Virus record (IMG/VR): IMGVR_UViG_3300001979_000002 | Coordinates: 1 to 48,442 of that record | DNA: 48,442 nt | From: a virus | Reading direction: 5' to 3' (one strand) | Shown here: positions 3,903 through 47,623 of the stretch, piece after piece | How positions within the stretch are numbered: the first letter of the stretch is position 1 | Layout of the letters: every line of letters begins with the position of its first letter | Position numbers and translations under genes: made by a program | The notes under the pieces: model-generated | Told to the model about the DNA's origin: nothing | Databases searched by the model: none | The model's input: only the letters and a program-made list of their open reading frames with translations

Positions 3903-3985
3903 TGGTTCCACCCATGAGTTGAATTAGTCATAGATGGTTATGCCATTTCCAGGAGAGATTCAACGAGGGATATATACCGTTTACG

Positions 3986-20514: not shown

Positions 20515-21555
20515 TTAGAGGCCGTCGGCGTAACCGACGGTTTCCGGGTACCGGGCCTCGACCTGGCCGAGGCGGCCGTAGTAGGTCGTGATCTGGTACA
20601 GCGACCGGTATTCGACCGGCGTGCGCTGCAGCGGAACCATCGGGAACTGGACGTACTTCTTGTCCTTGGTGTAGGCCATCATGCGATCCACACCGGCAGC
20701 ACCACGGCCGGTCAGCCACTTCAGCGGCTGGATGTTCAGCGGCTTGCCGTTGACCGAGTTCGAGAGGCTGTTCTGCTTCAGGAACTCAAGGATCGAGATG
20801 TTGCCGGCGGAGCTGACCGTCTGTGAGACGATGTAGCCGAACTGGACCGGAGGCAGACGCAGATCGGTCGGGGCCTGTGCCCAGCCGGAAGCGGCCCATA
20901 CCGCGTTCAGGAGGCTATTGACGTCTCGCAGGATCTGCGCCGGCGTCTTGTTGATCCAGAGCGGCGAGCTGCCGGTGCCATCGCTGAGAACGTTGCTCGG
21001 GGTGACGGCTGCGAGGTTCAGCAGGCCGTAGCAGTTCGGTAGGACGGAATCACCGATGTAGACCTGCTCGTCGACGTCCATATTGCGCTTGAGCACCATG
21101 GCATCATACTTCTGGGTATCGATCGGACGGCCGATCTGCTGAGCGCTGGCGAGCTCGGGGAGCGTCCAGGAGATTTCAGCGCCCCAGAGGTTCAGGGGTT
21201 GCGGGGTCTTACCGATGTCGAGCGCCAGCGAAGCGATGGCATTCGCATCCTTGCCGATCCAGTTCTTGCCGCCGGGATTCAGACCGCCGGCGCCAGCAAA
21301 GGTGGAATTGGTGAAGGACGCAGTTTCGTCAGCGATCGAGACGTCTTCGCGAAGATCGATGTCGCGAGACCATGTGACACTGACGAGCGGCTCGTTGATG
21401 GTCTGGTCGAGACGTTCGAGCTCGCCAATCAGGAACGCGCCAGTGCTGTCGATCGTCTGACGGTCATAGGTTGCGAGTGCGTCGCGGGTCCGGGCACGGA
21501 TGATGTGAGGGGTCATCAGTGCGGCGCTGCCCACGAGGAGGAGTTGCTTGGTCAT
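20515..21555 (-). CDS. Major capsid protein, DUF2184 family
   Basis: 346 residues from the ATG at 21555 (GGAG 6 bases upstream). WSRDIDLREDVSIADETASFTNSTFA, EISWTLPELASAQQIGRPIDTQKYDAMVLKRNMDVDEQVYIGD and FPMVPLQRTPVEYRSLYQITTYYGRLGQVEARYPET are typical of DUF2184 capsids (HK97-like fold). Neighbours are the cement and protease/scaffold genes. No large N-terminal delta domain is seen, consistent with a separate scaffold. Confidence 0.9.
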   Translation of the reverse strand: MTKQLLLVGSAALMTPHIIRARTRDALATYDRQTIDSTGAFLIGELERLDQTINEPLVSVTWSRDIDLREDVSIADETASFTNSTFAGAGGLNPGGKNWIGKDANAIASLALDIGKTPQPLNLWGAEISWTLPELASAQQIGRPIDTQKYDAMVLKRNMDVDEQVYIGDSVLPNCYGLLNLAAVTPSNVLSDGTGSSPLWINKTPAQILRDVNSLLNAVWAASGWAQAPTDLRLPPVQFGYIVSQTVSSAGNISILEFLKQNSLSNSVNGKPLNIQPLKWLTGRGAAGVDRMMAYTKDKKYVQFPMVPLQRTPVEYRSLYQITTYYGRLGQVEARYPETVGYADGL

Positions 21556-26140: not shown

Positions 26141-27609
26141 TTCTTGCCTCCGGTCACAACAGACAGCGCCGGCTCGGCTTCGTTCTGCTCTTGCTCGAGC
26201 GGATCCTGGTCGGGCTCGTCGACTGGCTCGATCGCTCCCTCGGCGCCGGGCGGTTCTTCGCCTTCTGCTTCCTTGATCTCCTCATCGGAGATGTTCGAAA
26301 AGATTCCAGTGATATCAGACGATTGCCGCAGTTCCTTGAGAGCGGTGGCGCGGCTGATGATGCTTGCACCTTCGACGTTGGTCACTGCGGTAGACACTGC
26401 GGTCGCGATGTCGGCCCGCTCCTTCTCGCTCATTTGCCACAGCGGGTTGAAGCGGAAGTTGAAGGACTTCGGAGGCTCGATGCCGAGCTCTGACCGGTGC
26501 AGGACTTGAAGGAGTGCTGCCAAACCAGGCCGGAGACGATCCTCCTGCTGAGCATTGATGAAGTCGTAATAGTTCCGCAGATCGCTTTCGCCTGTGGCGT
26601 TCATTCCCGCCGGCGACTGGCCGAACAGGCGGACAATCGGGATGTCGATCGCGCCGGACAGCTGCTGAGCGAACTGCAGCGTAATATCCGACAGTCCTGC
26701 GAAGGTGTACTGATGGGCTTCGAAGTCGTCTTCCGCATCCATGAGGGTCATGCCCTCGTTGGACTGAAACTTGCGGACCATGTCCATTTGCTTGAGCAGC
26801 GCTTCCAGAACCGCGCCGCCGGCGGAGATCACCCTGCGGAGATCCTTGACCTTATAGGTGCGCAGATGGGCCTTGTAGATAAGCTGTGCCGCGCCTTGCG
26901 TCGCGCTATCGAACGCGATGAGGCGATCATACAGGCGCTCAAGGACGCTGAGACCCCAACCATTCTCGGTGATCTTCTGCTGGAACGGCAGCTCATAGCC
27001 TTCGATCCGGATCACGCGGGAATAATGCACGCGCTTGTTCATCAGCGCCGGTGCATTCTGGTTGACCACATATTCCATCGGCTGGCCGAGATCGGGGCCG
27101 AAGTCCGTCACCGGCTTTTCGATCGACGGCTGCACCATCCAGCGGTCAAGAACGAGCAAGCCCTTGAATTGCCCCTTGGTCACCGTTTCAGGACGAAGAG
27201 GTGTTTCGACATCCTGGCCGTCAATCAGCATCACAGCGATCGCGCCACCGTATAGCCGCGCCCATTTGATCGTGTTGCTGATGGCTTTCCAGATCCTCAG
27301 GCGCTCCAGCGCGCCCTGCAGCTCTTCTATATCGTCAGGCGATGTCGTGCCGTTCAGATCGATGCCGGCTCGGGTCATGTCCTCGGCGGGAACATCGACT
27401 GCTTTGCCGACCAGCCACGAGCCTCGATACATGAACTCGAGCAGCACACGATTGCGGCTGATTGGGTTGAGACCGTATGTGGTGCCGGTCGCCATGCTAT
27501 CGGTGCCGACGCCGGTCCGAGCCGCGAAGTTCTGAAAGCTGTCGTTCGTCTTGGCCGGTGGCGCTTGCGTCCAGCGCTGTTGGATTCGGCTGCTGCGGCG
27601 TCTTGACAT
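26137..27609 (-). CDS. Portal protein, DUF1073 family
   Basis: 490 residues from the ATG at 27609, which overlaps the terminase stop as TAATG. GTTYGLNPISRNRVLLEFMYRGSWLVGKAVDVPAEDMTRAGI is the DUF1073 start, with later GLSDITLQFAQQLSGAIDIPIVRLFGQSPAGMNATGESDLRNYYD. The C-terminus is acidic. It forms the DNA channel at the head vertex. I see no extra phosphodiesterase (Acb1-type) domain of the kind fused to some relatives. Confidence 0.92.
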   Translation of the reverse strand: MSRRRSSRIQQRWTQAPPAKTNDSFQNFAARTGVGTDSMATGTTYGLNPISRNRVLLEFMYRGSWLVGKAVDVPAEDMTRAGIDLNGTTSPDDIEELQGALERLRIWKAISNTIKWARLYGGAIAVMLIDGQDVETPLRPETVTKGQFKGLLVLDRWMVQPSIEKPVTDFGPDLGQPMEYVVNQNAPALMNKRVHYSRVIRIEGYELPFQQKITENGWGLSVLERLYDRLIAFDSATQGAAQLIYKAHLRTYKVKDLRRVISAGGAVLEALLKQMDMVRKFQSNEGMTLMDAEDDFEAHQYTFAGLSDITLQFAQQLSGAIDIPIVRLFGQSPAGMNATGESDLRNYYDFINAQQEDRLRPGLAALLQVLHRSELGIEPPKSFNFRFNPLWQMSEKERADIATAVSTAVTNVEGASIISRATALKELRQSSDITGIFSNISDEEIKEAEGEEPPGAEGAIEPVDEPDQDPLEQEQNEAEPALSVVTGGKK

Positions 27610-29150
27610 TATCCGGCTAGCCTCTTCCACATGTTTTCATCGAAGGTGTCGCCAAGGGCGAGCTCGTTCAGAGCATCGGCGAAGGCATCGACCTGGTCAT
27701 CGAACTGTCCGTTCGGAAACGAGCAGAGCTCATCAAGGAACGCTTCGTTCCAATCACCGCGGACAAGCTTCACATTGCCGGCCTCCGCTTGGGCAGAAGC
27801 TGGCTTCGCTCGCGTTGCCTTGTCACCTGTAGGCGGCACGGCCTTCACATCAAATCCCGCGAGCAGCTTGATCTTTGTCCCGGCATCCGCCTTACCGGCA
27901 GCGCCTGGGTCTTGCGGCATTCGAACTGTCACGAACGGTCCGTCCTGTGTGGCTGCATTCTTCAGGTTCTTCTCGACATCCGACGGCGACCAGCGATCGC
28001 GGCGCACATCCTCGACGTAGAAGACGTTGTCGACGTAGGCCATCTTGAGGCCGACCGTCCAATCAGGCTGCTTGCCAGGTTTCGCGACAGATGCGGCGAA
28101 GTCCCAAGCCCTGCAGCGTCGCGCGCCGGCCGGAACGACATCCACGATTTCAAAGTCACCACGCTGGAACATGCCGCCAGATCGCGGCGTCGGCCGCTGC
28201 TGGTACTGTCCTGCGTAAGCGTAGGAGCCCTTGGCCTTCTTGAGGCGTTCGATCTCCGATCGCGGGAACCGCTCGGGGAAAAGCAATTCCCCTTCTTCGG
28301 TCCGAGGATCCTCAAAGAATAACTCGCCATCGACATAGGTCCGGCACGCGTTCTCCGGTTCGAACTCCATCGGCAGGTTCAGATGCACGAAGCCGATATC
28401 GAGCTGCAGCGCTACCGCCGCCACGTCCTGCGCATGCAGGCGCTGCATGATGATGACGATCGCCGATGTGGTGACATCGTTCAGGCGGTCCGAAATACCT
28501 TCCCGGAAAATGCGAACTGCCGTCTGGCGCTCGGTATCGCTTTCCGCCGTCTCGGTGGAGTGCGGGTCGTCGATCTTTACCCGGTCGCCGCGTCCACCGG
28601 TCATGGAACTGAAGGGGCGCGCCTCGCTGAAGCCGTTGCCGGTATTCTCGAACTTTCCCTTGGCGTTTTGATCGTCACGAAGCTTGAGTGGCCAAAGCGT
28701 CTGAAACTTTGGGCTCTCCACCAGACGGCGAAGCTTGATGTTGTCTCGAAGGACGTTCGGCTGACTGTATGACGTCGCCAAGACCTGGATATCGGATCGC
28801 TCGCAGGCGCCCCACTCCCAAGCGGTCCAGAAGACCATCAGGAGGGATTTCATCATGCCCGGCGGCACGGTCATCATCAGGAACTGGATCTTGCCGGCCG
28901 TCACTGCTTCGAGATGCTTGCACATCGCCCGAAGCGCCCATCCGAACCGCAGTTCCCGCTTAGGCTCCAGGACCGTCCAGAACTCCCGAATGAACCCTTC
29001 CAAGGTTTGACATTGCGCCCGGATGCGTTCGGCGTCCCGTGCGGTCCGCTCCTGCTCGGCTAGCTCAGCTCTGCGTTTCCTCTCCGCCCTGATCGCCCGC
29101 ATCATCGTCGCCGGATCCGGCAAGCGGGCCAAAGATGGCTTCGAGTGCAT
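27609..29150 (-). CDS. terL: Terminase large subunit
   Basis: 513 residues. ATPase: P-loop VPPGMMKSLL (residues 95-104, the form usual in this phage group) and acidic motif VKIDDPHS near 200. Nuclease: RAWDFAAS near 345 and QFDDQVDAFADAL near 485. It cuts concatemers and drives DNA into the head. The ATG at 29150 has GGAAGAG upstream but overlaps the small subunit by 86 bases; an ATG at 29105 is the alternative. Confidence 0.92.
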   Translation of the reverse strand: MHSKPSLARLPDPATMMRAIRAERKRRAELAEQERTARDAERIRAQCQTLEGFIREFWTVLEPKRELRFGWALRAMCKHLEAVTAGKIQFLMMTVPPGMMKSLLMVFWTAWEWGACERSDIQVLATSYSQPNVLRDNIKLRRLVESPKFQTLWPLKLRDDQNAKGKFENTGNGFSEARPFSSMTGGRGDRVKIDDPHSTETAESDTERQTAVRIFREGISDRLNDVTTSAIVIIMQRLHAQDVAAVALQLDIGFVHLNLPMEFEPENACRTYVDGELFFEDPRTEEGELLFPERFPRSEIERLKKAKGSYAYAGQYQQRPTPRSGGMFQRGDFEIVDVVPAGARRCRAWDFAASVAKPGKQPDWTVGLKMAYVDNVFYVEDVRRDRWSPSDVEKNLKNAATQDGPFVTVRMPQDPGAAGKADAGTKIKLLAGFDVKAVPPTGDKATRAKPASAQAEAGNVKLVRGDWNEAFLDELCSFPNGQFDDQVDAFADALNELALGDTFDENMWKRLAG

Positions 29151-29541
29151 TCAGTTGCTCTTCCGATGCGTTGGTGAGGTCAACGGTTTGGATCGGGCCG
29201 CCATTCGGACCGGCGATGCGGTGTTGCGCCGGCGGATAGCTACCTTGCATCTTGTTTGCCTCTGCTATGGCGGCAATGGCGGTGCGGCGGTCATCCGCTG
29301 CTGAGGCGTCGAAGATCGACTTAAGACCCATGAGCCTGTCAGCGGCCGTCCATTCAGCCTTTTCGGCCACTCTGGACTTGATCTCAGCGACGCGCCGTCG
29401 AATGTCGTCTTTTGTCGTCAGACGTGCTGCATTCTTACGATCAGGCTTATAGCCTGCGTCCTGATATGCCTCGGTTGCGCTCTTACCTTTTGCAAGTGCC
29501 TGCGCAAACATCTCGTGCCGAGCGTTTTTCAGGACTGGCAT
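29065..29541 (-). CDS. terS: Terminase small subunit
   Basis: 158 residues. RHEMFAQALAKGKSATEAYQDAGYKPDRKNAARLTTKDDIRRRVAEIKSRV is the helix-turn-helix/coiled start of small terminases, followed by ERLMGLKSIFDASA-like and an acidic tail. It recognises the packaging site. Starts 22 bases from the divergent zinc-ribbon gene, so promoters here must overlap. Confidence 0.85.
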   Translation of the reverse strand: MPVLKNARHEMFAQALAKGKSATEAYQDAGYKPDRKNAARLTTKDDIRRRVAEIKSRVAEKAEWTAADRLMGLKSIFDASAADDRRTAIAAIAEANKMQGSYPPAQHRIAGPNGGPIQTVDLTNASEEQLNALEAIFGPLAGSGDDDAGDQGGEETQS

Positions 29542-29563
29542 GGCCTAACCTTTGGAGGGTGAG

Positions 29564-29764
29564 ATGGTAGCGAAATGCCCGAAATGCGAACAAGACGTCC
29601 ATCACTTCAACTATGAAAACAAAGACGCGCGAGATGCGTTCAATCTGCGGCCAACATACCCGGCGGTCGCATTGACCTGCATACACTGCTCGACCATCCT
29701 TGGCGCGACGATCGATCCAATTGTCTTGCATACTCAGATCATGGACGCCTTGAAAAAGAAGTGA
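29564..29764 (+). CDS. Small zinc-ribbon protein
   Basis: 66 residues from the ATG at 29564 (GGAGG 5 bases upstream). CPKCEQDVHHFNYEN and, 30 residues on, CIHCSTILGATIDP give two CxxC knuckles, a zinc ribbon. It is rightward in a leftward region and divergent from the small terminase. Function unknown. Confidence 0.7.
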   Translation: MVAKCPKCEQDVHHFNYENKDARDAFNLRPTYPAVALTCIHCSTILGATIDPIVLHTQIMDALKKK

Positions 29765-29899
29765 TCCGGCTGACCCACTTAGCGCCGTATATGAAAGGGC
29801 TCAGGACCCCGGAGCGGCGGCGCGGCATCTTCTGCCACGAGTGAAGCCATGGTCTTGTCGCCGGGAACAAGCCGAAAGGCCCGCTCTCTTCGGAATGGA
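29765..29899. other. Gap between convergent genes
   Basis: 135 bases between the zinc-ribbon gene and the leftward gene ending at 29900. I see no convincing gene, tRNA or T-run terminator here. Confidence 0.4.
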
Positions 29900-30151
29900 T
29901 TAGGAGACCCTGTCGAAGGTCAGCTGATAAACGGCACCAATTTCGAACTGATCGATGGCAGCCGGATTGGTGATCGTCATGGCGATGTCACCAGACGGCG
30001 TCCACTTGGACCAATCGCCATTACCCTCGGGCAAACCCTTAAGATAGGTGCCGAAGGCCGCGCCGAGCTTTACCTCGACGTTGACCGCATCGGCTTGCCC
30101 CGTGGCCCGGTGATTGATTTCCTTCACGTAGAACATGGCTTGGACGGACAT
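29900..30151 (-). CDS. Hypothetical phage protein
   Basis: 83 residues. MSVQAMFYVKEINHRATGQADAVNVEVKLGAAFGTYLKG, GDIAMTITNPAAIDQFEIGAVYQLTFDRV: a beta-rich small protein of a kind seen next to terminases in rhizobial phages. AAGGAG lies 6 bases before the ATG. It is 53 bases downstream of the early-operon terminator, so it needs its own promoter or read-through. Confidence 0.7.
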   Translation of the reverse strand: MSVQAMFYVKEINHRATGQADAVNVEVKLGAAFGTYLKGLPEGNGDWSKWTPSGDIAMTITNPAAIDQFEIGAVYQLTFDRVS

Positions 30152-30204
30152 TCGTCTTCTCCTTTATTGGTCCGGTTACCGCCGGACGCGGATGGCTGGC
30201 GAAG

Positions 30205-30234
30205 AAAAACCCGCCGACCGGTGAAGGTGACGGG
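30205..30234 (-). terminator. Intrinsic terminator of the leftward early operon
   Basis: On the minus strand CCCGTCACC pairs with GGT-C-GGCGGG (9 pairs with one bulged C), loop TTCACC, then TTTTTC. It begins 6 bases after the tRNA 3' end, so the tRNA is probably the last product of the early operon. Confidence 0.75.
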
Positions 30235-30239
30235 CTGAT

Positions 30240-30314
30240 TGGTTGCAGGCTCCGGAGTCGAACCGGATCTTTCGAGGTTATGAGCCACGCGGCTTACCGT
30301 TTGCCCTGCCTGCG
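30240..30314 (-). tRNA. Initiator tRNA-fMet (CAU) with encoded CCA
   Basis: 75 bases. Acceptor GCAGGC/GCCTGC with the unpaired first pair C1 x A72; D stem GGC/GCC with purine 11:pyrimidine 24; loop AAACGGTAA; anticodon loop CTCATAA; variable AAAGA; T arm TCCGG-TTCGACT-CCGGA; end GCAACCA. C1xA72 and the R11:Y24 pair are initiator hallmarks. The anticodon stem has two loop-proximal G-C pairs, then a U-U mismatch where initiators usually have the third G-C. It is close to normal but slightly degenerate. Confidence 0.85.
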
Positions 30315-30322
30315 TAAATGGT

Positions 30323-30342
30323 GCCCGAGCCGAAGCCCGGGC
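30323..30342 (-). other. Stable hairpin with UUCG loop before the tRNA
   Basis: GCCCGGGC-TTCG-GCTCGGGC on the minus strand: 8 pairs (one G-U) closed by a C(UUCG)G loop. It lies 9 bases before the tRNA 5' end. It has no T-run, so it is more likely a processing or stability element than a terminator. Confidence 0.45.
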
Positions 30343-30408
30343 TATGGGGCGGCGCTGCAGCCTTACCTCGCGACCAGGATACCCCGATCCCTTGGAACCT
30401 ACCCCAAG

Positions 30409-31050
30409 TCATGCCGGAGTTTTCACTCCCAAGCTCCTGTTTCGATCAGAATGCCGCGCCCGAATGTCTCGGGGTTCGATTACTCTGGACGATGCCAGCG
30501 TAGGGTCGATCTGCGGCTTGCCGTCCGGTGCGATCCAGTAGGCTGGCCCGTGGTCGCGTTTGTCGGACGATACCGTTGTTGATGCGTGTTCTACGCTGTT
30601 TTGCGACACGCCGTCCAGATCGATTGTCAACCGAGCGCGATGCATTTGGTTGAGATTGTCCGCAATTATTTGACAATACCGCTGAATTTTTCTTTCGAAA
30701 GTTCGTCTCACCATGTCGTTCTGTTCGAGATAGCGCTCTAAAAACATGCCCTTGCGGCTCTTTATGAAACCATAGTCATAGACAAGCTTGCGTTCCGCCT
30801 CTTCCAGGTACGCGTTGATCCATGTCCATGTCTCTTCCATGCGGCTGAGTGCGCCGGCGGAGATGATGCGGCGGTAGGACGGCGCCCGATCATATTCCGT
30901 TGCGATGACGGCCGACACCATCTCCCCGAAAGCACCGCTCTTCATTCTGGGGCCGAGGGCAGCCGGCGATGCTGCCAGGGTCTCGGCGGCCTCGATCACC
31001 CGCCCCTTCACTTGTTCGTACGTCCAGTCATGGAACACTGCCATGTTCAT
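30409..31050 (-). CDS. Hypothetical early protein, DUF6362-like
   Basis: 213 residues. A helical N-terminus (WTYEQVKGRVIEAAETLAASP) and a Trp-rich middle (LSRMEETWTWINAYLEEAERKLVYDYGFIKS), then a possible helix-turn-helix, resemble the DUF6362 phage proteins; the match is by eye. C-terminal ~60 residues are polar. It is the last protein gene of the early operon; GGAG lies upstream of the ATG. Confidence 0.6.
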   Translation of the reverse strand: MNMAVFHDWTYEQVKGRVIEAAETLAASPAALGPRMKSGAFGEMVSAVIATEYDRAPSYRRIISAGALSRMEETWTWINAYLEEAERKLVYDYGFIKSRKGMFLERYLEQNDMVRRTFERKIQRYCQIIADNLNQMHRARLTIDLDGVSQNSVEHASTTVSSDKRDHGPAYWIAPDGKPQIDPTLASSRVIEPRDIRARHSDRNRSLGVKTPA

Positions 31051-31499
31051 GCCGCTTCTCCGATCATGTCCAAAAGATCGCCCTGCACGGGCTTGTAGAA
31101 TTTCACCCCGATCAACACGCGGAGAACATGGGTTGTCGGGATGCCGCAGTTCATTGCCTTGGCCTTGCGCCGGAGGCTGCCGAGGTCGAGCCCATTGAAG
31201 TCACTGACCAATGACGGCGAGCGCACCAAGGCCGGGTTCTGGATTAGGACGGATGACACCGCCTTGATCATGTCGCTGTAGAGTTCCGCCGCATTCCCCT
31301 TGGTGCCGGTCATCAGCATGAAGACGAGCTTCAGATGATCCTCACCATATTCCCTGCCGATCTCGCGCACCGTCGGCTTGCAGTAGCACTCGAATGGCTT
31401 CCGGCTTGTCGGGCTATGCAGATGGCCGTCGAATAGCTTAACGCCGCATTGGCGCGCTACCTTGTAGATGTCGCAGGGATGGGAGGCTGGCTGGTTCAT
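31047..31499 (-). CDS. Hypothetical early protein
   Basis: 150 residues from the ATG at 31499, which overlaps the upstream stop (ATGA). CDIYKVARQCGVKLFDGHLHSPTSRKPFECYCKPTVREIGREYGEDHLKLVFMLMTGTKGN: conserved-looking in rhizobial prophages, no motif I can name. Overlaps the next gene by 4 bases. Confidence 0.6.
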   Translation of the reverse strand: MNQPASHPCDIYKVARQCGVKLFDGHLHSPTSRKPFECYCKPTVREIGREYGEDHLKLVFMLMTGTKGNAAELYSDMIKAVSSVLIQNPALVRSPSLVSDFNGLDLGSLRRKAKAMNCGIPTTHVLRVLIGVKFYKPVQGDLLDMIGEAA

Positions 31500-31747
31500 A
31501 TGCCGGCAGCCCTTTCGATCGCTTGCTTCAACCCCTTGCGCCAAAGAACCTCATCGCAGTAATAGAGGCGGCTCACCCGGTCTGGATCGCTCTCCCGCTT
31601 AATAGCCCGCTGCACCTTCGCTCGCCTGCGGCGTAGGGACTTCGACACCATCGCCCAATGCTTCCCACAGACCCACTCCACCCATCCCTTGGGATTGGCA
31701 TGGGTGCGGCGACAAAACGGGACACAGCAGGAGATGCGGTCGGTCAT
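31496..31747 (-). CDS. Small zinc-finger-like basic protein
   Basis: 83 residues. SCCVPFCRRTHANPKGWVEWVCGKHW: Cys/His spacing suits one zinc site; then a strongly basic helix (SLRRRRAKVQRAIKRE). Similar proteins are common in alphaproteobacterial phages. Probably nucleic-acid binding. Confidence 0.6.
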   Translation of the reverse strand: MTDRISCCVPFCRRTHANPKGWVEWVCGKHWAMVSKSLRRRRAKVQRAIKRESDPDRVSRLYYCDEVLWRKGLKQAIERAAGI

Positions 31748-32229
31748 AGCTTCCCCTCCGCCTTCAATCGCTCGATCTTTTTGACGGCATGCAGAACAGT
31801 CGTATGGTCGCGACCGCCGAAAAGCCGACCGATTTCCGGATAGGATCGGTCGAAGAGCTTCTTGACCTCGTACATCAGCAACTGACGAGCGGCGACGACC
31901 TTGCGATGACGATCAGGGCTCCGGATCTTGTCGAATGAAAAACCGAGCTCTGCGGCGCGGTTCCTGACATACAGGCTGCTGTTGCGCTCGTGGATTCCCC
32001 GCCATGCGCGCCAGGCATGTACGTGGGCATCGAATTCTATGTCGCAGCCCATCCAGTAAGGCAGGTGCGGTAGCGGCTCGCGCTGTATGAGCATGGGAGC
32101 CGGCGGCTTCGGAACAGGCGTCGGTACCGACCGGCGCAGCGGTGCGGCTCTGAGGCGCTGTTGAAGCAGGCGATAGGCGTCTATCATTTCGGCGCCGGTG
32201 GCATAGGTCTTTGCGTCGACTTGCATCAT
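31744..32229 (-). CDS. DnaA domain-IV-only DNA-binding protein
   Basis: 161 residues. The C-terminal ~60 residues (SPDRHRKVVAARQLLMYEVKKLFDRSYPEIGRLFGGRDHTTVLHAVKKIE) match DnaA domain IV, with the signature GRDHTTVLHAVKKI at 139-152. The AAA+ domain and Walker motifs of DnaA are absent. Residues 30-60 are Pro-rich. GAGG lies 7 bases before the ATG. It sits downstream of the helicase in the operon and could mark DnaA boxes on phage DNA or compete with host DnaA. Confidence 0.85.
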   Translation of the reverse strand: MMQVDAKTYATGAEMIDAYRLLQQRLRAAPLRRSVPTPVPKPPAPMLIQREPLPHLPYWMGCDIEFDAHVHAWRAWRGIHERNSSLYVRNRAAELGFSFDKIRSPDRHRKVVAARQLLMYEVKKLFDRSYPEIGRLFGGRDHTTVLHAVKKIERLKAEGKL

Positions 32230-32471
32230 GCCGGCACCTCGTGCGGTCCAACGGTGATGATCTCAGCATTGCGCGTCCGCACAAACGGCACGAAATCCGA
32301 GCCCTCGTAGCGGCGATCAGTGCTCGACCGCGCCTCTATGATACGGAACCTGTCACCGGCTCTCAGCTCGCGACATGCCGCCGAAATCGCTGCGTCTCGC
32401 GTCGGCTCATCGACGGCCAGATTGTAAACATCGTCATCGAGCTCTCCGGCCCACCATCTCCAAGGCGTCAT
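32226..32471 (-). CDS. Small hypothetical early protein
   Basis: 81 residues. MTPWRWWAGELDDDVYNLAVDEPTRDAAISAACRELRAGDRFRIIEARS: acidic alpha/beta, of a type seen in rhizobial phages. GGAGG upstream; overlaps both neighbours by 4 bases. Function unknown. Confidence 0.6.
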   Translation of the reverse strand: MTPWRWWAGELDDDVYNLAVDEPTRDAAISAACRELRAGDRFRIIEARSSTDRRYEGSDFVPFVRTRNAEIITVGPHEVPA

Positions 32472-32776
32472 GCCGGCATCCTCCGGCGCTCGACCTCGAT
32501 CAGCCGCGACTTGCCCCGCTGTTTGACGAACGGCTTGAGATTGAAATGGGTGTCCGCTTCGGAAACAGCCTTGATGACTTCGCCGTCGCGAACGAGGTGA
32601 CCGTTGAAATAAGCCAGCAGATGGCGATTGACGGCCCGCAGCGCTTCAACCTCAGTCGGGAAGACAAAAGGCTTGTCGCCATCCATGAGAGGCTTTGGAT
32701 GGCCGTCGCGGGCGAAACGCAGCATTGCCCAATGGCCGCCGGGGACTGGACGCGTGTAACCTGCGAACTCGTTCAT
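32468..32776 (-). CDS. Small hypothetical early protein
   Basis: 102 residues from the ATG at 32776, overlapping the preceding stop. EFAGYTRPVPGGHWAMLRFARDGHPKPLMDGDKPFVFPTEVEALRAVNRHLLAYFNG: a compact alpha/beta protein. Tight operon packing. Function unknown. Confidence 0.6.
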   Translation of the reverse strand: MNEFAGYTRPVPGGHWAMLRFARDGHPKPLMDGDKPFVFPTEVEALRAVNRHLLAYFNGHLVRDGEVIKAVSEADTHFNLKPFVKQRGKSRLIEVERRRMPA

Positions 32777-33234
32777 GCTTCTTCCTTCCAAAGGCGATCG
32801 TCGATCACGGCTTCGGTCCATGGCCGAATGCCTTCAGCCTCAACGGCTGCGATGTTTTGAGGGGTGAGATGGATGACGCCGACATAATAGCTGTCGCCGA
32901 ACGCGCCGACGATTTGCTGCTTCTTCAAGCGATCCGCCAATTCCTTCTGGCAATCGGCCAGAAGGATGCAGTCGCCTTCATGTGACCAGGCGCCATAGGT
33001 GTCCTGCTTCCAGAACTTGCCGCTATCCCAGAGCTGCTTTCGGAGTGGCCCGTGCAGGTCGAAGCCGATAATCCGGCCGCGCTTGGCATCCCGTTTGATC
33101 AGGTCGAGATTGGCGTTGACGACTTGGAGGACGTCCATTCGCTTCAGGCCGGCCATCGATGCGATTTCAGCGATAGTCGTGAAGGATTTGCACTTCAGCA
33201 GCGCGCGGACGGTATCGAGGACAGGCGTCGTCAT
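32773..33234 (-). CDS. Winged-helix-like hypothetical protein
   Basis: 153 residues from the ATG at 33234. N-terminal LDTVRALLKCKSFTTIAEIASMAGLKRMDVLQVVNANLDLIKRD fits a helix-turn-helix/winged helix. The C-terminus is mixed, with ILLADCQKELADRLKKQQIVGAFGD. Possibly a DNA-binding helper of replication. Overlaps both neighbours. Confidence 0.6.
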   Translation of the reverse strand: MTTPVLDTVRALLKCKSFTTIAEIASMAGLKRMDVLQVVNANLDLIKRDAKRGRIIGFDLHGPLRKQLWDSGKFWKQDTYGAWSHEGDCILLADCQKELADRLKKQQIVGAFGDSYYVGVIHLTPQNIAAVEAEGIRPWTEAVIDDRLWKEEA

Positions 33235-33809
33235 CGGCGCGTCCTCCACACTTCCTCAGGGTCGATACCTTCCGCCGCCATACGATCAAGCGCGGCGGCC
33301 TGTCGGGCGTCGTGGTTTCCCCAATGCTCCGCGTGCTTTTCTTCTCCCCACTGATCCCATGTAGTTTCCCGCTTGCAGCGGTCTGCAAAATCCTTGTTCT
33401 GACGCCATTGGCGGCAATAATCCGGCCACCATTTGGTCATCTTGCCGTTGCAGCCGTGTTTGCTGTCGATCATGGCTTCGATGATCTGGCGGATTTCGTC
33501 AGGCGAATATTCGTTCTCGCCGGCTACTTGATAGACGCCAGCGAACGAACGAAATCCTGTCTCCGACCAATAAATCGAACCTGGCGGCTCAACAGCGTAG
33601 GTCTGGAAGACAGACGAAAATCTGATGAGTGTCGGTATGCCGCGAACTTCAATTTCGATTGGATCGCGCTCGGCGACATCGATTTCCATAGCTTCCCATA
33701 CGCCATAGGCACGCGTCATGAATTCCCGGCGAGGTGGCGGCGTCCAGGGCTTTGTGACCACCGGCGCCGGTGGCGGCATCATCAAATCGAACATGGAAAG
33801 CTGCTGCAT
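33231..33809 (-). CDS. Hypothetical early protein
   Basis: 192 residues. Pro-rich start (MMPPPAPVVTKPWTPPP), a beta-rich middle and a charged Trp-rich C-terminus (NGKMTKWWPDYCRQWRQNKDFADRCKRETTWDQWGEEKH). Starts one base into the helicase stop (TGATG). No motif recognised. Confidence 0.55.
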   Translation of the reverse strand: MQQLSMFDLMMPPPAPVVTKPWTPPPRREFMTRAYGVWEAMEIDVAERDPIEIEVRGIPTLIRFSSVFQTYAVEPPGSIYWSETGFRSFAGVYQVAGENEYSPDEIRQIIEAMIDSKHGCNGKMTKWWPDYCRQWRQNKDFADRCKRETTWDQWGEEKHAEHWGNHDARQAAALDRMAAEGIDPEEVWRTRR

Positions 33810-35263
33810 CAGAACAAATCCCCCGTCCGCGCCGGCTGATTGGACCGGTAGCGCGTGTATTCCGCTTCGAATTTCAGGGTTTCGACGATGGACGGATCAC
33901 CGAAGCGGACCTTGATCGACGCGATTTCGGCGATGCCCTCGATGTCCGATCCAAACGTCTTGTTGATCAGCGCCCAATCCTTGTCGGTGACGGCGACCTT
34001 CATTCGCTCCTGCTTGTATTTCTCAGGGCGATAGAGGGTAAGGACGGCGTCGTAGTCCGCACGGGCGCCCTCGCCGCCGTAGAGGTCTCTTGATATCGGG
34101 CGGGGATTGTCGCGGATCGTGCCTTGCCCGTTTCTCTGGTTGAGGATCAGGACCGCCGAGCCGGTCTCATCTGCAAGCGATTTCAGCTCGACGGTGACCT
34201 CGCCTGAAATCCGATCGGGGGAAAGCTTCGGATCGCGAGGTTTCACCTTGCCGATGTGGTCGATCACAATGAACGGCGTCTTGCCGTTGGCCCGCTTCTT
34301 GATGAACCGGCGGGCATAGGTCACCAGCCGGTCAACTCCTTCGCGCTGGCAGCGGATGATCTCGAATGGCTGCTCATTGATCCACGTCGCGAACTGAACG
34401 CATAGATCCTGCTGGGCCTGGCTCATCAGCCGCATGGGTTCGCGCTGCTGCCTAACACTGATCTCGTGAACCTGGGCGATCATTTGCCGCACGCATTGAG
34501 CCGCTGACTGGTCATAGGAGAGGAAAAGGACCGGATGTCCCTCGTAGACCGCGTGGTAGATGAGCTGCATCGTCAGAGACGATTTTCCCTCGCCGGATGA
34601 GGAAAGCAGCCCGTACAGGTTGCCAGCCTCGAAGACCGGCTCCGAGAGAACCTTGGCAATTTCCGACAAAGCGATCGGAACGCCGATAACACCGTCGCGC
34701 CGGGCCGACGCCTGGAAGGCTGCGAGATAAGAGGAACCGGGCGCCGCAATAGCCGTCGTTTCGGCGAAGCGAGACCGCATGTCCTTCAGGCGAGCTTCGA
34801 GCTGCTCGATCTCGTCCCCAAGCGTGAGAAGGGTATGCCCTTCCTTCGCCATCGTGGCGGCGAACTCAGCTTCCCGGGAAAGCTGCCGGGACAATGCGGC
34901 GCCCTTGATAATCTGCAGGGCAGCCTCAATGCGCTCCGGCCGCATGTTCAGCCCTTCGGCAAGCATATTGGTCAGGTACTGTGCCGGGGTAATCGATAGG
35001 CCGGCGATCGCCTTAGGCATTGCCGGCTTCAGATTTACGGGTGTCACCGGATGGTTTGCCGCGAAGAGCCTTTCTGCTTCCTCGAAGATCTTACGGTGCA
35101 GTGCCTCCTCGAAGTCATCTGCCTTGAGGCCGCATTCCGCCAGAATGGTATTGTTGCCGAGGATCGCCGAAAGGATATCTTGTTCGGCTGTGAGGACGTC
35201 CTCTGCGGAGATGCCGTCCAGCAAGCGGTTATCGGAGGTGAAGTCGCGCGGATGAGCGTTCAT
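33809..35263 (-). CDS. Replicative DNA helicase, DnaB-like
   Basis: 484 residues. N-terminal helical domain (LTAEQDILSAILGNNTILAECGLKADDF) is that of DnaB. The RecA-like ATPase has Walker A SSSGEGKSS (221-229) and Walker B FIVIDHIG near 333, then ILNQRNG and the basic GEGARADYD loop. It unwinds the fork. The DNA methyltransferase gene overlaps at its 5' end. GAGG precedes the ATG. Confidence 0.9.
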   Translation of the reverse strand: MNAHPRDFTSDNRLLDGISAEDVLTAEQDILSAILGNNTILAECGLKADDFEEALHRKIFEEAERLFAANHPVTPVNLKPAMPKAIAGLSITPAQYLTNMLAEGLNMRPERIEAALQIIKGAALSRQLSREAEFAATMAKEGHTLLTLGDEIEQLEARLKDMRSRFAETTAIAAPGSSYLAAFQASARRDGVIGVPIALSEIAKVLSEPVFEAGNLYGLLSSSGEGKSSLTMQLIYHAVYEGHPVLFLSYDQSAAQCVRQMIAQVHEISVRQQREPMRLMSQAQQDLCVQFATWINEQPFEIIRCQREGVDRLVTYARRFIKKRANGKTPFIVIDHIGKVKPRDPKLSPDRISGEVTVELKSLADETGSAVLILNQRNGQGTIRDNPRPISRDLYGGEGARADYDAVLTLYRPEKYKQERMKVAVTDKDWALINKTFGSDIEGIAEIASIKVRFGDPSIVETLKFEAEYTRYRSNQPARTGDLF

Positions 35264-40109: not shown

Positions 40110-40348
40110 GCTGCGGTCTCCTGCTGGAGACGACGCTCAGCCTCGTCGAGCCACTCAACCATCTTCTGGTACGTTTTGATGTTGAAGCCGATATCGGGAT
40201 TTTGGACCCGGCTAAGAAATTTGCTGTCCCCAACGGCGGATATGCCCATCGCGGAAAAGCTCGTCTTTGCCTTAGTCGCATACGAGGTAGCTCGAGCGAT
40301 GAGGCTTTCTCGGATGTCTTGTTCGGTGATTTCGGCTCTCTGTGTCAT
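40106..40348 (-). CDS. Cro-like small regulator, first gene of the leftward operon
   Basis: 80 residues from the ATG at 40348. SAVGDSKFLSRVQNPDIGFNIKTYQKMVEWLDEAERR looks like the recognition half of a small helix-turn-helix protein. It is divergent from CI across operators O1-O3, the position of Cro. The ATG lies 6 bases after a -10 box, and no ribosome site is present, so the mRNA is probably leaderless. Confidence 0.6.
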   Translation of the reverse strand: MTQRAEITEQDIRESLIARATSYATKAKTSFSAMGISAVGDSKFLSRVQNPDIGFNIKTYQKMVEWLDEAERRLQQETAA

Positions 40349-40354
40349 GACAGC

Positions 40355-40383
40355 CATATTCGGGACATTTCCCGAATTGTCAA
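40355..40383 (-). promoter_or_regulatory. Leftward early promoter with operator in its spacer
   Basis: Minus strand: -35 TTGACA (40378-40383, perfect), 17-base spacer, -10 AATATG (40355-40360). The spacer is operator O1 minus its edges. Transcription would start close to the ATG at 40348. Confidence 0.65.
40358..40377. promoter_or_regulatory. Operator O1
   Basis: ATTCGGGA-CATT-TCCCGAAT, perfect 8-bp arms. Best copy of the site and probable CI/Cro target. Confidence 0.75.
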
Positions 40384-40399
40384 GGGATACTTCCCGATG
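40380..40399. promoter_or_regulatory. Operator O2
   Basis: TCAAGGGA-TACT-TCCCGATG. Core GGGA-N4-TCCCGA kept. Starts 22 bp after O1. Confidence 0.6.
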
Positions 40400-40418
40400 G
40401 ACGTGATATTTCCCGAAA
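40399..40418. promoter_or_regulatory. Operator O3 (one good half)
   Basis: GGACGTGA-TATT-TCCCGAAA. Right arm intact, left arm poor. Lies just before the CI start, where it could let CI control its own promoter. Confidence 0.5.
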
Positions 40419-40432
40419 TGCGATTATCGGGC

Positions 40433-41104
40433 ATGGAAACGTCCCTACAAAAACGCCTCCGCATCCGCATGGATCTGCTTGGTCTCAATGCCCTCCAAAC
40501 GGCCAAGAAAGCCGGCCTTGGGGACAGCTTCGTGCGTGATATCCTCAGAGGGAAAACGCGAAGCCCAAACGCCGAGAACTTGAGAAAGCTTGCCGAGGCT
40601 CTCGATACAACGCCTGACTGGTTTATGGGGTCTGGAGAGGAGAGATCGAGCGTTAAGCCGATTGGGAGCGTCTCGGGCTTGGAAGTCCAAGGATCTATTC
40701 AGGCCGGAAGTTGGGTTGACCGGTCGCTTATCGATGAGAACGAAGAACGTGAAATCATTCCGGTGGCGCGTGATCCGCGCTTTCCCCACGCAAAGCAATA
40801 TGCCCTTCTCGTAATTGGGGATTCCATGGATAAGGAATACCCAGAAGGCTGCTATGTGACGTGCGTCGATTACTGGGAAAGCGGCGTTGCCCTGAAACCT
40901 GGTCTAATAATCCATGTGGAGCGACATAACGGCCCATTGATTGAAATGACCCTCAAGGCGATCGAGCTGACTGAGGACGGCATAATGCTTATGCCACGCA
41001 GTTCGAATCCTCGCCATCAGCCGATAAAGCTCGAGGGCGACGGGGGGACGGAGATCATCGTGAAGGGTATCGTCACCGGTTCATATAGGCGCACTGCTAT
41101 CTAA
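40433..41104 (+). CDS. CI-type repressor: helix-turn-helix plus S24/LexA-type self-cleaving domain
   Basis: 223 residues from the ATG at 40433 (no ribosome site; in-frame starts further upstream lie in the operators or the opposing gene). Helix-turn-helix at about 8-62 (LGLNALQTAKKAGLGDSFVRDILRG). Cleavage site A91-G92 (QAGSW). Catalytic S131 in GDSM and K175 in TLKAIE. These residues fit RecA-stimulated autocleavage and SOS induction. It should hold lysogeny by binding the six operators. Confidence 0.9.
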   Translation: METSLQKRLRIRMDLLGLNALQTAKKAGLGDSFVRDILRGKTRSPNAENLRKLAEALDTTPDWFMGSGEERSSVKPIGSVSGLEVQGSIQAGSWVDRSLIDENEEREIIPVARDPRFPHAKQYALLVIGDSMDKEYPEGCYVTCVDYWESGVALKPGLIIHVERHNGPLIEMTLKAIELTEDGIMLMPRSSNPRHQPIKLEGDGGTEIIVKGIVTGSYRRTAI

Positions 41105-43954: not shown

Positions 43955-44235
43955 GCGAACAGCTTTCCCCTACCCGCGCCGTCGCCGCCGTCAAGTTCAA
44001 ATGGCAGAAGGCCGAAGACGCCAAGACCTATGATTATTTCGTTCCGGCCGGCCTTGAGCTGCAGACCGGCGACAAGGTCATGGTCGAAACCAAGCATGGC
44101 CCGAAAGAGGTCGAGGTCGTCGAGATCAAGGCCGAATCTGACAAGGCGGAGAAGGAAATCCTTCGCCGCGCCGATCCGAAGCCAGAAGTCGGAACAGCCG
44201 CTTCGCCGGCCGTCGAGACGAAGTGGGACTTCTGA
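43951..44235 (+). CDS. Small beta-barrel-like hypothetical protein
   Basis: 94 residues, start overlapping the previous stop (ATGA). VKFKWQKAEDAKTYDYFVPAGLELQTGDKVMVETKHGPKEVEVVEI suggests an SH3/KOW-like barrel (DUF5839-like by eye). C-terminus charged. Between the coiled-coil gene and the annealing protein. Confidence 0.6.
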   Translation: MSEQLSPTRAVAAVKFKWQKAEDAKTYDYFVPAGLELQTGDKVMVETKHGPKEVEVVEIKAESDKAEKEILRRADPKPEVGTAASPAVETKWDF

Positions 44236-44236
44236 C

Positions 44237-45370
44237 ATGGACACCCAGACCCAGACGAAACCGAGCATGCCGGCGCTTGCCGGTGGCGGCCAGGTCATGG
44301 CGATTGTGCCGCAGACCTTCGAAGAAACATTCCGCATCGCCAAGGCCGTCTATCTTGGCGGCCTGGCACCTGCGGCGCTGATCGGCCGGCTGCAGGGCGA
44401 TGATGCCATCAGCGCTGTCACCGTCGCCATCATGGCCGGTGCCGAGCTCGGCCTGAAGCCGATGGTCTCTCTCCGGAGCTTTACCGTCATCAACGGCAAG
44501 CCAGCGCTGTACGGCGATGGTATCATCAACGTCGTGCGCCAGTCCGGGCGCGTGGCGCTTCTGAAAACCGGCTACGCCAAGGATGACAAAAAGATCCTGC
44601 GCGATGCCGGCGTGCTTCCTAGCAAGGAAGCGGAAGAGGAAGTGCCGGGCGTGACGGCTAAAGCCTACGCCGCTCTGACGGAAGATGAGCGCACCTTTGG
44701 CTATTGCGTAGCCAAGCGATCGGACACGGGCGAAGAAAAGACCGTAGTCTTCAGCGTCGCCGACGCGAAGCATGCACGCCTTTGGGACGATCGTCCGACG
44801 GTGCGAAAGCAAGTCTTGGAGAACGGGCAGAAGGTTTGGAAGGACGGGCAGCCGAACGACGCGCCTTGGTACCGCTTCCAGAAACGCATGCTGTCCTGGC
44901 GCGCTGCGGGCTATTGCCTCCGCGAACTGTTCGGCGACGTGCTTGGCGGTATCCGCGATGAGTTCGAAGCTCGCGAGATCGCCGACCTCGACGATATGCG
45001 CGACGTCACCCCGCAGGCTGAGCAGCCTGCGAGGCCAAAGCCGCCGAAGCCGCCAAAGCCGCCTGTCGAAGATGCGGAAGTCATTGACGTCACAGACCAA
45101 CCAACCGAAGAGAGCAATGCAGAGCCGGACCAGTCGGAAGAGCGTGAATCTGAAACCGGATCACAACATGAGATCGTAGACGATAACGAGTTCTTCGAGC
45201 AGCTCGAGGAAGCCCTCGCCGTCGTCTCCGACACGGCATCGCTGGAAGAGGTTTGGACCGAGTTCGACCCTATGGCCCGTTTCGACGGCAAGCCCCAGGG
45301 CGAAGTCAACCAGGGCATCGCCAAGGCGATCCGCAAGCGCGCTGAGAAGCGCATCGGCGGTGCGGCATGA
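44237..45370 (+). CDS. RecT/Red-beta-like single-strand annealing protein (putative)
   Basis: 377 residues from the ATG at 44237, one base after the previous stop. IAKAVYLGGLAPAALIGR, AIMAGAELGLKPMVSLRSFTVINGKPALYGDGIINVVRQSG, WYRFQKRMLSWRAAGYCLRELFGDVLGG are typical of phage RecT-type proteins of alphaproteobacteria. The C-terminal ~120 residues are Pro-rich (PKPPKPPKPP) and acidic. It should anneal single strands during replication and concatemer formation. No partner exonuclease is recognised next to it. Confidence 0.7.
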   Translation: MDTQTQTKPSMPALAGGGQVMAIVPQTFEETFRIAKAVYLGGLAPAALIGRLQGDDAISAVTVAIMAGAELGLKPMVSLRSFTVINGKPALYGDGIINVVRQSGRVALLKTGYAKDDKKILRDAGVLPSKEAEEEVPGVTAKAYAALTEDERTFGYCVAKRSDTGEEKTVVFSVADAKHARLWDDRPTVRKQVLENGQKVWKDGQPNDAPWYRFQKRMLSWRAAGYCLRELFGDVLGGIRDEFEAREIADLDDMRDVTPQAEQPARPKPPKPPKPPVEDAEVIDVTDQPTEESNAEPDQSEERESETGSQHEIVDDNEFFEQLEEALAVVSDTASLEEVWTEFDPMARFDGKPQGEVNQGIAKAIRKRAEKRIGGAA

Positions 45371-46224
45371 GCAAGTCCGATTTCCCCCCGCTTCGCATGA
45401 CGATCGAGGGCAACCGGCTCATTCCCGCCGGACCCTTCGACGCCGAGCGCCTGAACTCGTATCGCCGCGGAACCATCGTCTTCGTCACGTTCACAGAAGA
45501 GAAAGACAGGCCCCTCGTCCGTAAGTGGTTCGCCGTACTGGGTCTGGTTGTCAAGCAGTGCAAGACGCCATGGAAGACGCGCGATGAAGCTCACGAGGCC
45601 ATCAAGCTCGCCTTGGGCATCGTCAACCTGTCGAAGACTGTCGGCGGACAGTTCATGTCGTATCCGAAGTCGCTGACCGAGCTAGAAGACCCGGAACTGC
45701 AGGAAGCTCTCGACAACATGATCGAGCTTCTCAGCCATATGACGGGCGTCGATGTCGCGACCCTCAAGAAGGAAACCGCGCACGTCGACGAGGAGCCGCA
45801 TGATCCTGACACAGGCGAATCCCTTGATACTCGATCCACCAATTCCGGCCCGATGCCATCCGAGCCGGATACAGCGGACAGCGGCACCCTTTCCGCCTCC
45901 GCAGCGTCCGACGATACCGCCCCCCAAGCCTCGTCGTCGGACGCTCCCACTTCAGAACGCGAAACGCTGATCAAGTTTGCCCGGGACATGCTCCCCATGG
46001 CTGCGGATACCAGCGTCTCGCCGGCAGCCCTCAAAGCCGTCGAGCGCGAATGGGCTCCGCTGATCAAGGAGCTTTCGCCCGAGAGTGTCGATAAGGCCCG
46101 CGCGATCAGTGAAAGCGTCCGTGCGATCGCCAACGACCCCAAACGGCTCGGGCCGGCGCTTCAGCATTTTGCCGAGGTGTTGGAATGCACCGTCGAAGAC
46201 ATCCGCGGAGCGACCGATGGCTAA
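45367..46224 (+). CDS. Hypothetical protein of the recombination operon (DUF1367-like N-terminus)
   Basis: 285 residues, ATGA overlap with the recombinase. MTIEGNRLIPAGPFDAERLNSYRRGTIVFVTFTEEKDRPLVRKWFAVLGLVVKQCKTPW resembles the start of DUF1367/Nin-region proteins by eye. Residues 145-195 are a Ser/Asp/Pro linker; the last 90 are helical. Probably works in recombination or replication; uncertain. Confidence 0.55.
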   Translation: MSKSDFPPLRMTIEGNRLIPAGPFDAERLNSYRRGTIVFVTFTEEKDRPLVRKWFAVLGLVVKQCKTPWKTRDEAHEAIKLALGIVNLSKTVGGQFMSYPKSLTELEDPELQEALDNMIELLSHMTGVDVATLKKETAHVDEEPHDPDTGESLDTRSTNSGPMPSEPDTADSGTLSASAASDDTAPQASSSDAPTSERETLIKFARDMLPMAADTSVSPAALKAVEREWAPLIKELSPESVDKARAISESVRAIANDPKRLGPALQHFAEVLECTVEDIRGATDG

Positions 46225-47623
46225 ACGCCGGCCGCCTAACGAACCCCTTTCCCCCTATGATCCAAGGAGCCGCAAGATGAGCTTCGATAAAATCCCAGAA
46301 CCCCCACGAGCCGAACGTTTCGAGTTGCGCGGCTGTGGCGATCCGAACTGCACCGAATGCAATTCCCACATTCCGCGCGAGGTCGCCAGAGGCATGCCGC
46401 GCGGCGTTCCATCCTTCACCAACTCCTCACCAATAGGAATTTCTGGAATGGCAACTCCATCATCTGGCGATATTATGGCGATGTTGCGTGACGAAATGAG
46501 CCGCGCAATGCGCAACCCTTCTCCGATTTTCAGCTTCGAAGTTGATAGGCCGAAGGCTGATGCGGAACCTGCTGCCTATAAGGAAGCTCGGGAAGCGGTC
46601 AAAGAATACCTGCTGGAAGTCAACCACGATACGGCCTGGGATGACGTGATCGGCAACGACAGTGCCCGCGCCGCATTGGTCGAGGCGATTGAGGAGCCCA
46701 AACTTCATCCGGAGCTTTACGATCACTACGGCATGAAGCCGCCAAAGGGTTTGTTACTCTTTGGTCCTCCCGGCTGTGGCAAGACCATGTTCGCCAAAGC
46801 AGCTGCTGCCGCCGTCGGCCGCAGCTACGGCGCCAAGGCCGAAGTCCTCGTTGTAAACGGCCCGTCGATCCAATCGCCTTATGTCGGCGTGACTGAAAAG
46901 ACGATCCGGAGCATCTTTGCATTCGCCCGAGAATATCACGCCTTCCATAAGCACCCGCTGACTGTGTTCTTCGATGAAGCCGAGGTGCTATTCCCGGATC
47001 GCACGGGCCGCACACGCCGCGTCTCGCCTTGGGAGGAAAGCCAAGTCGCGCAGTTCCTGGCCGAAATGGACGGTCTGAACTCGCTCGGCGCTTTCGTGAT
47101 CCTTGCCACGAACCGGCCGGAAGAGATCGACGAGGCATTGCTTCGCGACGGTCGATGCGATCGGAAAATCAAGGTTGAGCGCCCAAACCGAGCAGCGGTT
47201 GAGCATATCCTCCGCAAGACGCTGGCCCCGGTCCCGGCCTCCGACGCGCTGGACGATCTTGTCATGGCCGGCACGGAATCTTTCTTCAATCCGCACTACG
47301 TCATCCATGAAGGCCACATCGTCTCCGGCTTGGTCTCGAAGGACGGAAAGGGTTCAACCAAGAACGTTGCCATTAACTTTTGCCTGGAGCACATCGTCTC
47401 CGGTGCAATGGTTACCGGTGTGGCTCGGCGCGCGAAGTCGCAAGCGTTTGCCCGCGATCGGGAGAACGGCGAGAAAACCGGCATTAGGATCCAGGATGTT
47501 CTCTTCGCCGTGAAGCAGATTTTCGAGGAGAACAAGAACCTCGAACACGGTTTTGCGATCCGAGAGTTCGTCGAGGGCCTGCCGCTCAAGGAGATGCTTG
47601 AGCCGAAGGGCGTGATCCAATGA
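46217..47623 (+). CDS. Classical-clade AAA+ ATPase
   Basis: 468 residues. Zinc-like CGDPNCTEC (40-48) then a long linker. AAA domain: Walker A GPPGCGKT (183-190), pore-loop-like QSPYVGVTE (219-227), Walker B FFDEAE (251-256), sensor-1 Asn299, and SRH with LLRDGRCDR (309-316). This layout belongs to the FtsH/PAN/Cdc48/NSF group, rare in phages. No protease or helicase domain attached. The ATG at 46217 has GGAG upstream; an in-frame ATG at 46277 has AAGGAG and may be the main start. It could remodel a protein complex during early infection. Confidence 0.85.
   Translation: MAKRRPPNEPLSPYDPRSRKMSFDKIPEPPRAERFELRGCGDPNCTECNSHIPREVARGMPRGVPSFTNSSPIGISGMATPSSGDIMAMLRDEMSRAMRNPSPIFSFEVDRPKADAEPAAYKEAREAVKEYLLEVNHDTAWDDVIGNDSARAALVEAIEEPKLHPELYDHYGMKPPKGLLLFGPPGCGKTMFAKAAAAAVGRSYGAKAEVLVVNGPSIQSPYVGVTEKTIRSIFAFAREYHAFHKHPLTVFFDEAEVLFPDRTGRTRRVSPWEESQVAQFLAEMDGLNSLGAFVILATNRPEEIDEALLRDGRCDRKIKVERPNRAAVEHILRKTLAPVPASDALDDLVMAGTESFFNPHYVIHEGHIVSGLVSKDGKGSTKNVAINFCLEHIVSGAMVTGVARRAKSQAFARDRENGEKTGIRIQDVLFAVKQIFEENKNLEHGFAIREFVEGLPLKEMLEPKGVIQ

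Follow-up and report, generated by a model that had tools for sequence, protein, structure and literature searches.

What does a phage gain from an initiator tRNA of its own? The usual idea of codon compensation explains little for such a tRNA, and to our knowledge phage initiator tRNAs have been annotated without an explained function. The question is raised here by a tRNA gene in a 48,442-base IMG/VR contig (the window, analysed over its full length), whose tRNA locus has its DNA relatives in Sinorhizobium, Mesorhizobium, and Rhizobium phages.

Class and setting of the tRNA gene

ARAGORN identified a single tRNA in the window, a 75-nt tRNA-Met(CAU) with an encoded CCA end on the minus strand (30314-30240), and a search of the whole window against all Rfam families recovered it as RF00005 at 43.8 bits (gathering cut-off 29, E 3.9e-06). 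Both agree with an earlier sequence-only reading, which had placed an initiator tRNA at exactly 30240-30314 and had named ARAGORN as a check. In RNA sense, the gene reads CGCAGGC AG GGC AAACGGTAA GCC G CGTGG CTCATAA CCTCG AAAGA TCCGG TTCGACT CCGGA GCCTGCA ACCA. It lies downstream of a minus-strand early block (methyltransferase, DnaB-like helicase, DnaA C-terminal domain, and orf213) and is followed by orf83, terminase, and portal genes. The main features of the window are:

30240..30314, minus strand: initiator-type tRNA(CAU) with U29.U41 in the anticodon stem (ARAGORN, Rfam, family alignment, pair counts)
30205..30236, minus strand: intrinsic terminator of the early operon, a hairpin and T run 3 nt after the CCA (fold, homology)
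30323..30342, minus strand: hairpin with a perfect stem of 8 bp and a UUCG loop, lacking a T run, located 8 nt ahead of the tRNA (sequence, fold)
30409..31050, minus strand: orf213 (phrog_6836), the final protein-coding gene of the early operon and left border of the tRNA slot
31744..35263, minus strand: part of the early operon, with a DnaA C-terminal-domain protein, orf158, orf192, and a DnaB-like helicase
29900..30151, minus strand: orf83, right neighbour, 81% identical to phiLM21 p037
29065..29541, minus strand: terminase small subunit (PHROGs)
27609..29150, minus strand: terminase large subunit (PHROGs)
40202..41104, plus strand: CI-like repressor (HTH and S24 peptidase), divergent from the early operon
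44030..45370, plus strand: RecT-like annealing protein, a candidate agent for short-homology recombination

The window also encodes exonuclease and RuvC-like genes. Elsewhere it holds an AAA ATPase (46085-47623, plus strand) matched by the PADLOC models IetA and TRIP13, possibly defence-related cargo, and a methyltransferase-like gene (3168-3911, minus strand) matching phrog_4752 (tRNA methyltransferase) and PADLOC mad2.

The initiator tRNA of E. coli is marked by a 1:72 mismatch, G2:C71, C3:G70, and A11:U24 for formylation, and by three G-C pairs for the P-site (PMC7949028). All of these are present in the window tRNA except that 11:24 is G:C and 29:41 is U.U. Its acceptor end has C1xA72, G2:C71, C3:G70, A73, and the encoded CCA, G11 pairs with C24, and the CAU anticodon sits within the loop CUCAUAA; in the anticodon stem, G30:C40 and G31:C39 are paired and U29.U41 is mismatched, which leaves two of the three consecutive G-C pairs at 29-31:39-41. 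In four rhizobial genomes that carry relatives of the window tRNA, the host tRNA-fMet itself has A29-U41; three G-C pairs are thus not the rule among these hosts, and compared with them the phage tRNA has broken one A-U pair and lost no G-C. The sequence-only reading had thus listed the anticodon, the CCA end, C1xA72, the purine 11:pyrimidine 24 pair, and U29.U41 correctly, while its statement that the U-U replaces the G-C of initiators holds against E. coli and fails against rhizobial hosts. With the host tRNA-fMet, the window tRNA shares C1xA72, G2:C71, C3:G70, purine 11:pyrimidine 24, the loop CUCAUAA, G30:C40, and G31:C39, although 55 of 79 aligned columns are identical overall and the host tRNA has U8, a 4-bp D stem, A29-U41, and a length of 77 nt. 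The core of the window tRNA departs in having A8 for U8, a 3-bp D stem with A13.A22, and A48; of the U8-A14 core, which is a general tRNA feature and no initiator mark, U8 is absent and A14 is kept.

Because 1:72 and 11:24 are of the initiator type, the window tRNA is, by its sequence determinants, an initiator-type tRNA and neither an elongator nor an Ile2 tRNA, as the sequence-only reading had it. A CAU anticodon by itself would fit an elongator tRNA-Met, a tRNA-Ile2, or the remnant of an attachment site, and tRNA genes do serve as attachment sites for many temperate phages, yet we consider these identities highly improbable: the first two are ruled out by 1:72 and 11:24, and the third by a longest common block of 12 nt with host tRNA-fMet and by four host genomes, in which the only matches are full-length copies of the phage family and none is a host tRNA. 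The record, which may be incomplete, also returned no tyrosine or serine integrase when searched, a result that bears equally on tRNA-dependent lysogeny, in which a phage would integrate into the matching host tRNA gene and make good the loss with its own copy. Separately, five phage CAU tRNAs (L075, L080, L128, L135, and L141) combine C1xA72 with the elongator-like pyrimidine 11:purine 24 and are natural half-initiators.

Phage initiator tRNAs had been regarded as unusual in the sequence-only reading, a view that did not survive comparison with public records. Of 50,697 phage records in GenBank, two initiator queries matched 289 and 345 with an E value of at most 0.001 (raw BLAST matches that include a few plainly bacterial records, a handful having been inspected as tRNAs), so that similar tRNAs are present in hundreds of GenBank phages. 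Scanning IMG/VR by pattern gave at least 120 stretches with an initiator-like tRNA pattern. For phiLM21-like S. meliloti prophages, tRNA-Met or tRNA-fMet (CAU) is already reported in 15 of 25, with one further tRNA-Val (PMC12429752). Initiator tRNA genes are therefore commoner in phages than assumed and common in rhizobial phages, and the window tRNA is a divergent variant of an already known phage-encoded initiator tRNA.

The early-operon terminator (-16 kcal/mol, z -3.7, with none of 200 shuffles equally stable) follows the tRNA, as the sequence-only reading had said, but at a spacing of 3 nt (stem from 30236) and not of 6 bases. Three tRNA-less relatives found by anchoring on orf213 (L287, L289, and L290) have the window's terminator directly after orf213, and the window tRNA thus sits after the last early gene but before the terminator that belongs to this operon. 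This position is the best evidence for early transcription, and it suggests that in the window phage the tRNA is likely transcribed with the early operon, as had been proposed. A sigma-70 scan of the minus strand from 29500 to 31200, which covers alphaproteobacterial promoters poorly, returned no promoter of its own near upstream of the tRNA. The UUCG hairpin, which is kept in L202 with a changed loop, may help in processing or transcription. An adjacent terminator was also considered as a trait of the wider tRNA family and rejected, since it accompanies just 3 right-flank types out of 37 and 3 left-flank types out of 33, versus 10 of 300 random stretches.

Covariation and fold in the 75-nt family

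The window tRNA belongs to one divergent family, represented by about 40 intact loci (20 distinct sequences) besides many decayed ones. Members were gathered mostly by D-arm patterns; phiM5 was recovered separately in a BLAST search, and L062 was reached via its terminase. The patterns fix A8, and the invariance of positions 7-25 is partly by construction; A8 invariance was accordingly not used as a test, although A8 is common to the window, phiM5, and L062, the latter two found without D-arm selection. No member of the 20 has G:C at 1:72, where 19 have C.A or A.A and the remaining one U:A, and the pairs from 2:71 to 7:66 are always formed. Five pairs have changed on both sides, a number reached by 2 of 500 shuffles, whereas none of the 500 reached the covariation score, and all slid controls failed; within the family, pair 29:41 alone occurs as C-G, U-A, G-C, A-U, and U-G. 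These compensatory stem changes indicate that the RNA structure is or was selected. G30:C40 is present in all 20 family sequences and in 60 of 64 other phage initiator-like tRNAs, compared to 30 of 45 elongator-like CAU tRNAs (Fisher p 0.0005), while the tally of 1:72 in this wider set is biased by a search pattern that fixes A or T at 72. The anticodon loop is the same as the host's in 19 of the 20 family sequences.

Covariance scores rank the window tRNA (43.8 bits) below host tRNA-fMet (64.9 bits), among the intact family members (43-53), and above decayed copies such as the truncated L255 (32 bits) and the anticodon-less L209 (below the cut-off). It is therefore not the score of a plain pseudogene, which the sequence-only reading had named as evidence against an initiator. 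The U29.U41 mismatch is a subclade trait that recurs in eight loci (L197, L198, L199, L202, L204, L206, L264, and L265), and sequence error or recent decay was rejected as its cause on this ground. Its cost to the predicted cloverleaf is about 6 kcal/mol: forced into this fold, the window tRNA reaches -24.5 kcal/mol, compared to -30.0 to -30.8 for the host and unmismatched relatives, and its predicted minimum of -26.2 kcal/mol is not a cloverleaf, whereas that of L115 and L201 (about -30.5) is. The altered efficiency suspected from the U-U pair thus agrees with a weakened predicted fold; the window copy is probably a weaker folder, and U29.U41 probably makes it a weaker initiator than its relatives.

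A cultured phage holds a member of the same family. The tRNA-Met of the Sinorhizobium phage phiM5 (MF074189, 7352-7426) has 84% identity to the window's and the same A8, D arm, CAU, and CCA, but differs in a U1:A72 pair and, together with L266, in having U.U at 31:39 instead of 29:41. It also lies among virion genes, adjoining the major capsid gene, and not at the early/late junction.

Use, exchange, and loss at the tRNA slot

Where neighbours are recognisable, the tRNA almost always shares the strand of the genes and follows the early genes, ahead of terminase or portal. Among 48 terminase-anchored loci, which were not chosen for tRNAs, eight have a tRNA in the preceding 4 kb, in every case on the same strand; these comprise three initiators, two tRNAs for Thr, and one each for Gln, Tyr, and Gly. 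A tRNA-Gln lies between homologues of the window's orf213 and terminase in L004, and phiLM21 and RHph_TM3_3_3 carry a different 77-nt initiator tRNA in the equivalent place. The phiLM21 tRNA-Met/fMet(CAU), beside an orf83 homologue and the terminase, is of initiator type but differs from the window's in its 77-nt form, U8, and 4-bp D stem, and the use of such a different initiator in this place suggests that the activity is kept, not only the sequence. Lambdoid Shiga-toxin phages have tRNA genes near the antiterminator region ahead of the late genes, near the early/late junction, although these are rare-codon elongators, unlike the window's initiator. For phiLM21-like prophages, the part of PMC12429752 used here reports the presence of tRNAs and not their slot, exchange, or determinants. 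In KJ743987.1, the phiLM21 tRNA-Met (21148-21224; L003 5558-5634) is apparently annotated opposite to its genes, whereas ARAGORN and BLAST place it on the gene strand.

The 100-bp flanks sort into 33 types on the left and 37 on the right, joined in 45 combinations. These include a complete four-way set, U1 and U2 each with D2 and D9, which requires recombination within the tRNA. Identical tRNAs stand between flanks unrelated on both sides in 70 locus pairs, and one-sided homology is lost across the tRNA in 157 of 314 and 117 of 237 ordered pairs, compared to roughly 7% for each 100 bp at greater distances upstream. On the downstream side the flanks are mosaic in any case, the first two 100-bp steps giving 34% and 33%; since the loci were chosen for a common tRNA and the pairs are not independent, a special joint at this site is supported but not proven. 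The window illustrates both edges: its left spacer is common to L202 (97% over 167 bp including the tRNA), whose DNA differs directly after the CCA, and its right side matches L201 over the terminator. L202, with a tRNA identical to the window's, also has a tRNA-Thr and a tRNA-Gly alongside (2498-2573 and 2932-3006), and the slot can hold several tRNAs.

Decayed copies occur as well. Nine loci of one flank type hold remnants, mostly with the anticodon loop cut to CUAA and no CCA, the others truncated. In L209, L210, L214, L226, L236, L241, L252, and L259, the loop is about four bases long (CUAA or CUAG) and the CCA is gone, while the D and anticodon stems are intact. In L218, an intact 77-nt initiator accompanies a broken 75-nt copy, and L195, L215, and L237 likewise hold two tRNA types, some of them damaged. 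With several relatives lacking the anticodon or the gene, the tRNA is dispensable, although useful often enough to be kept and spread.

What the tRNA may do for the phage

We read the gene, with a probability of roughly 0.6, as a phage-encoded accessory initiator tRNA, an exchangeable and optional cargo of a slot at the early/late junction that is not essential. Its initiator determinants, the selected cloverleaf of the family, the position before a terminator, and repeated exchange are established at the level of sequence. Beyond these, the tRNA would be transcribed early by read-through from orf213 and then processed, charged with Met by host MetRS, and formylated by host Fmt because of C1xA72, G2:C71, and C3:G70, after which it would enter the ribosomal P site and top up the fMet-tRNA pool during infection. 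The likeliest benefit would be a larger supply of initiator tRNA at times when many starts on phage messages are required or the tRNA-fMet of the host has suffered damage. Several observations count against this reading: A8, A13.A22, and A48 break canonical core contacts, the cloverleaf is no longer the predicted minimum with U29.U41, close relatives are without the gene or have anticodon-less remnants, and the hosts already possess tRNA-fMet genes, often in multiple copies.

A backup against host nucleases, in which the phage tRNA would replace an initiator cut by VapC and the altered anticodon stem would make it a poor substrate, appears distinctly unlikely. Cleavage of initiator tRNA at the anticodon stem-loop is known for many VapC toxins, among them one from Bosea (Rhizobiales), for which extra tRNA-fMet partly rescued growth (PMC8522696); four genomes holding relatives encode 1 to 19 PIN-domain proteins, and the phage anticodon stem is unlike the host's. 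However, PIN proteins are common everywhere, the window has no PIN or antitoxin match, and phages usually avoid encoding tRNA-fMet where VapC cuts it (PMC10264068). The loop mutations that mark nuclease evasion in that study are absent from a loop that is the host's own in nearly all family sequences, and evasion of this type was rejected. A formylatable but P-site-defective tRNA might instead be a decoy that ties up IF2 or disturbs ribosome maturation, slowing host translation. The E. coli 3GC-mutant initiator is charged, formylated, and bound by IF2, yet it does not function in initiation and impairs the maturation of ribosomes (PMC10486304), and the window tRNA has one broken pair in the 3GC region, phiM5 and L266 another; with most anticodon stems of the family fully paired and G30:C40 invariant, we find this role very hard to credit.

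The exchange at the tRNA edges could also mean that the gene persists mainly as a short island of DNA in common, through which rhizobial phages recombine their early and late modules, its tRNA function secondary or fading. The many flank combinations with their complete four-way set, the identical tRNAs between unrelated flanks, the loss of one-sided homology across the gene, the RecT-like, exonuclease, and RuvC-like genes in the window, and the persistence of decayed copies all fit such a joint. We nevertheless regard it as unlikely, as compensatory stem changes would be unexpected if the gene were no more than a DNA joint, the same slot is used by several tRNA types (77-nt initiator, Gln, and Thr), the downstream flanks are mosaic in any case, and the exchange counts come from non-independent pairs of loci chosen for the tRNA. 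We tentatively entertain a version in which the gene is a standing joint of rhizobial temperate phages, its RNA structure selected and its 75 bp letting RecT-type recombination reshuffle early and late modules.

For the accessory initiator tRNA, what is kept while the rest drifts are the initiator marks and the RNA structure, in a gene located exactly where phage modules reassort. As a cultured S. meliloti phage with a member of the family, phiM5 makes a direct test of the role of a phage initiator tRNA possible. If the gene is indeed a recombination joint with a selected RNA, one small gene would serve both translation and genome shuffling.
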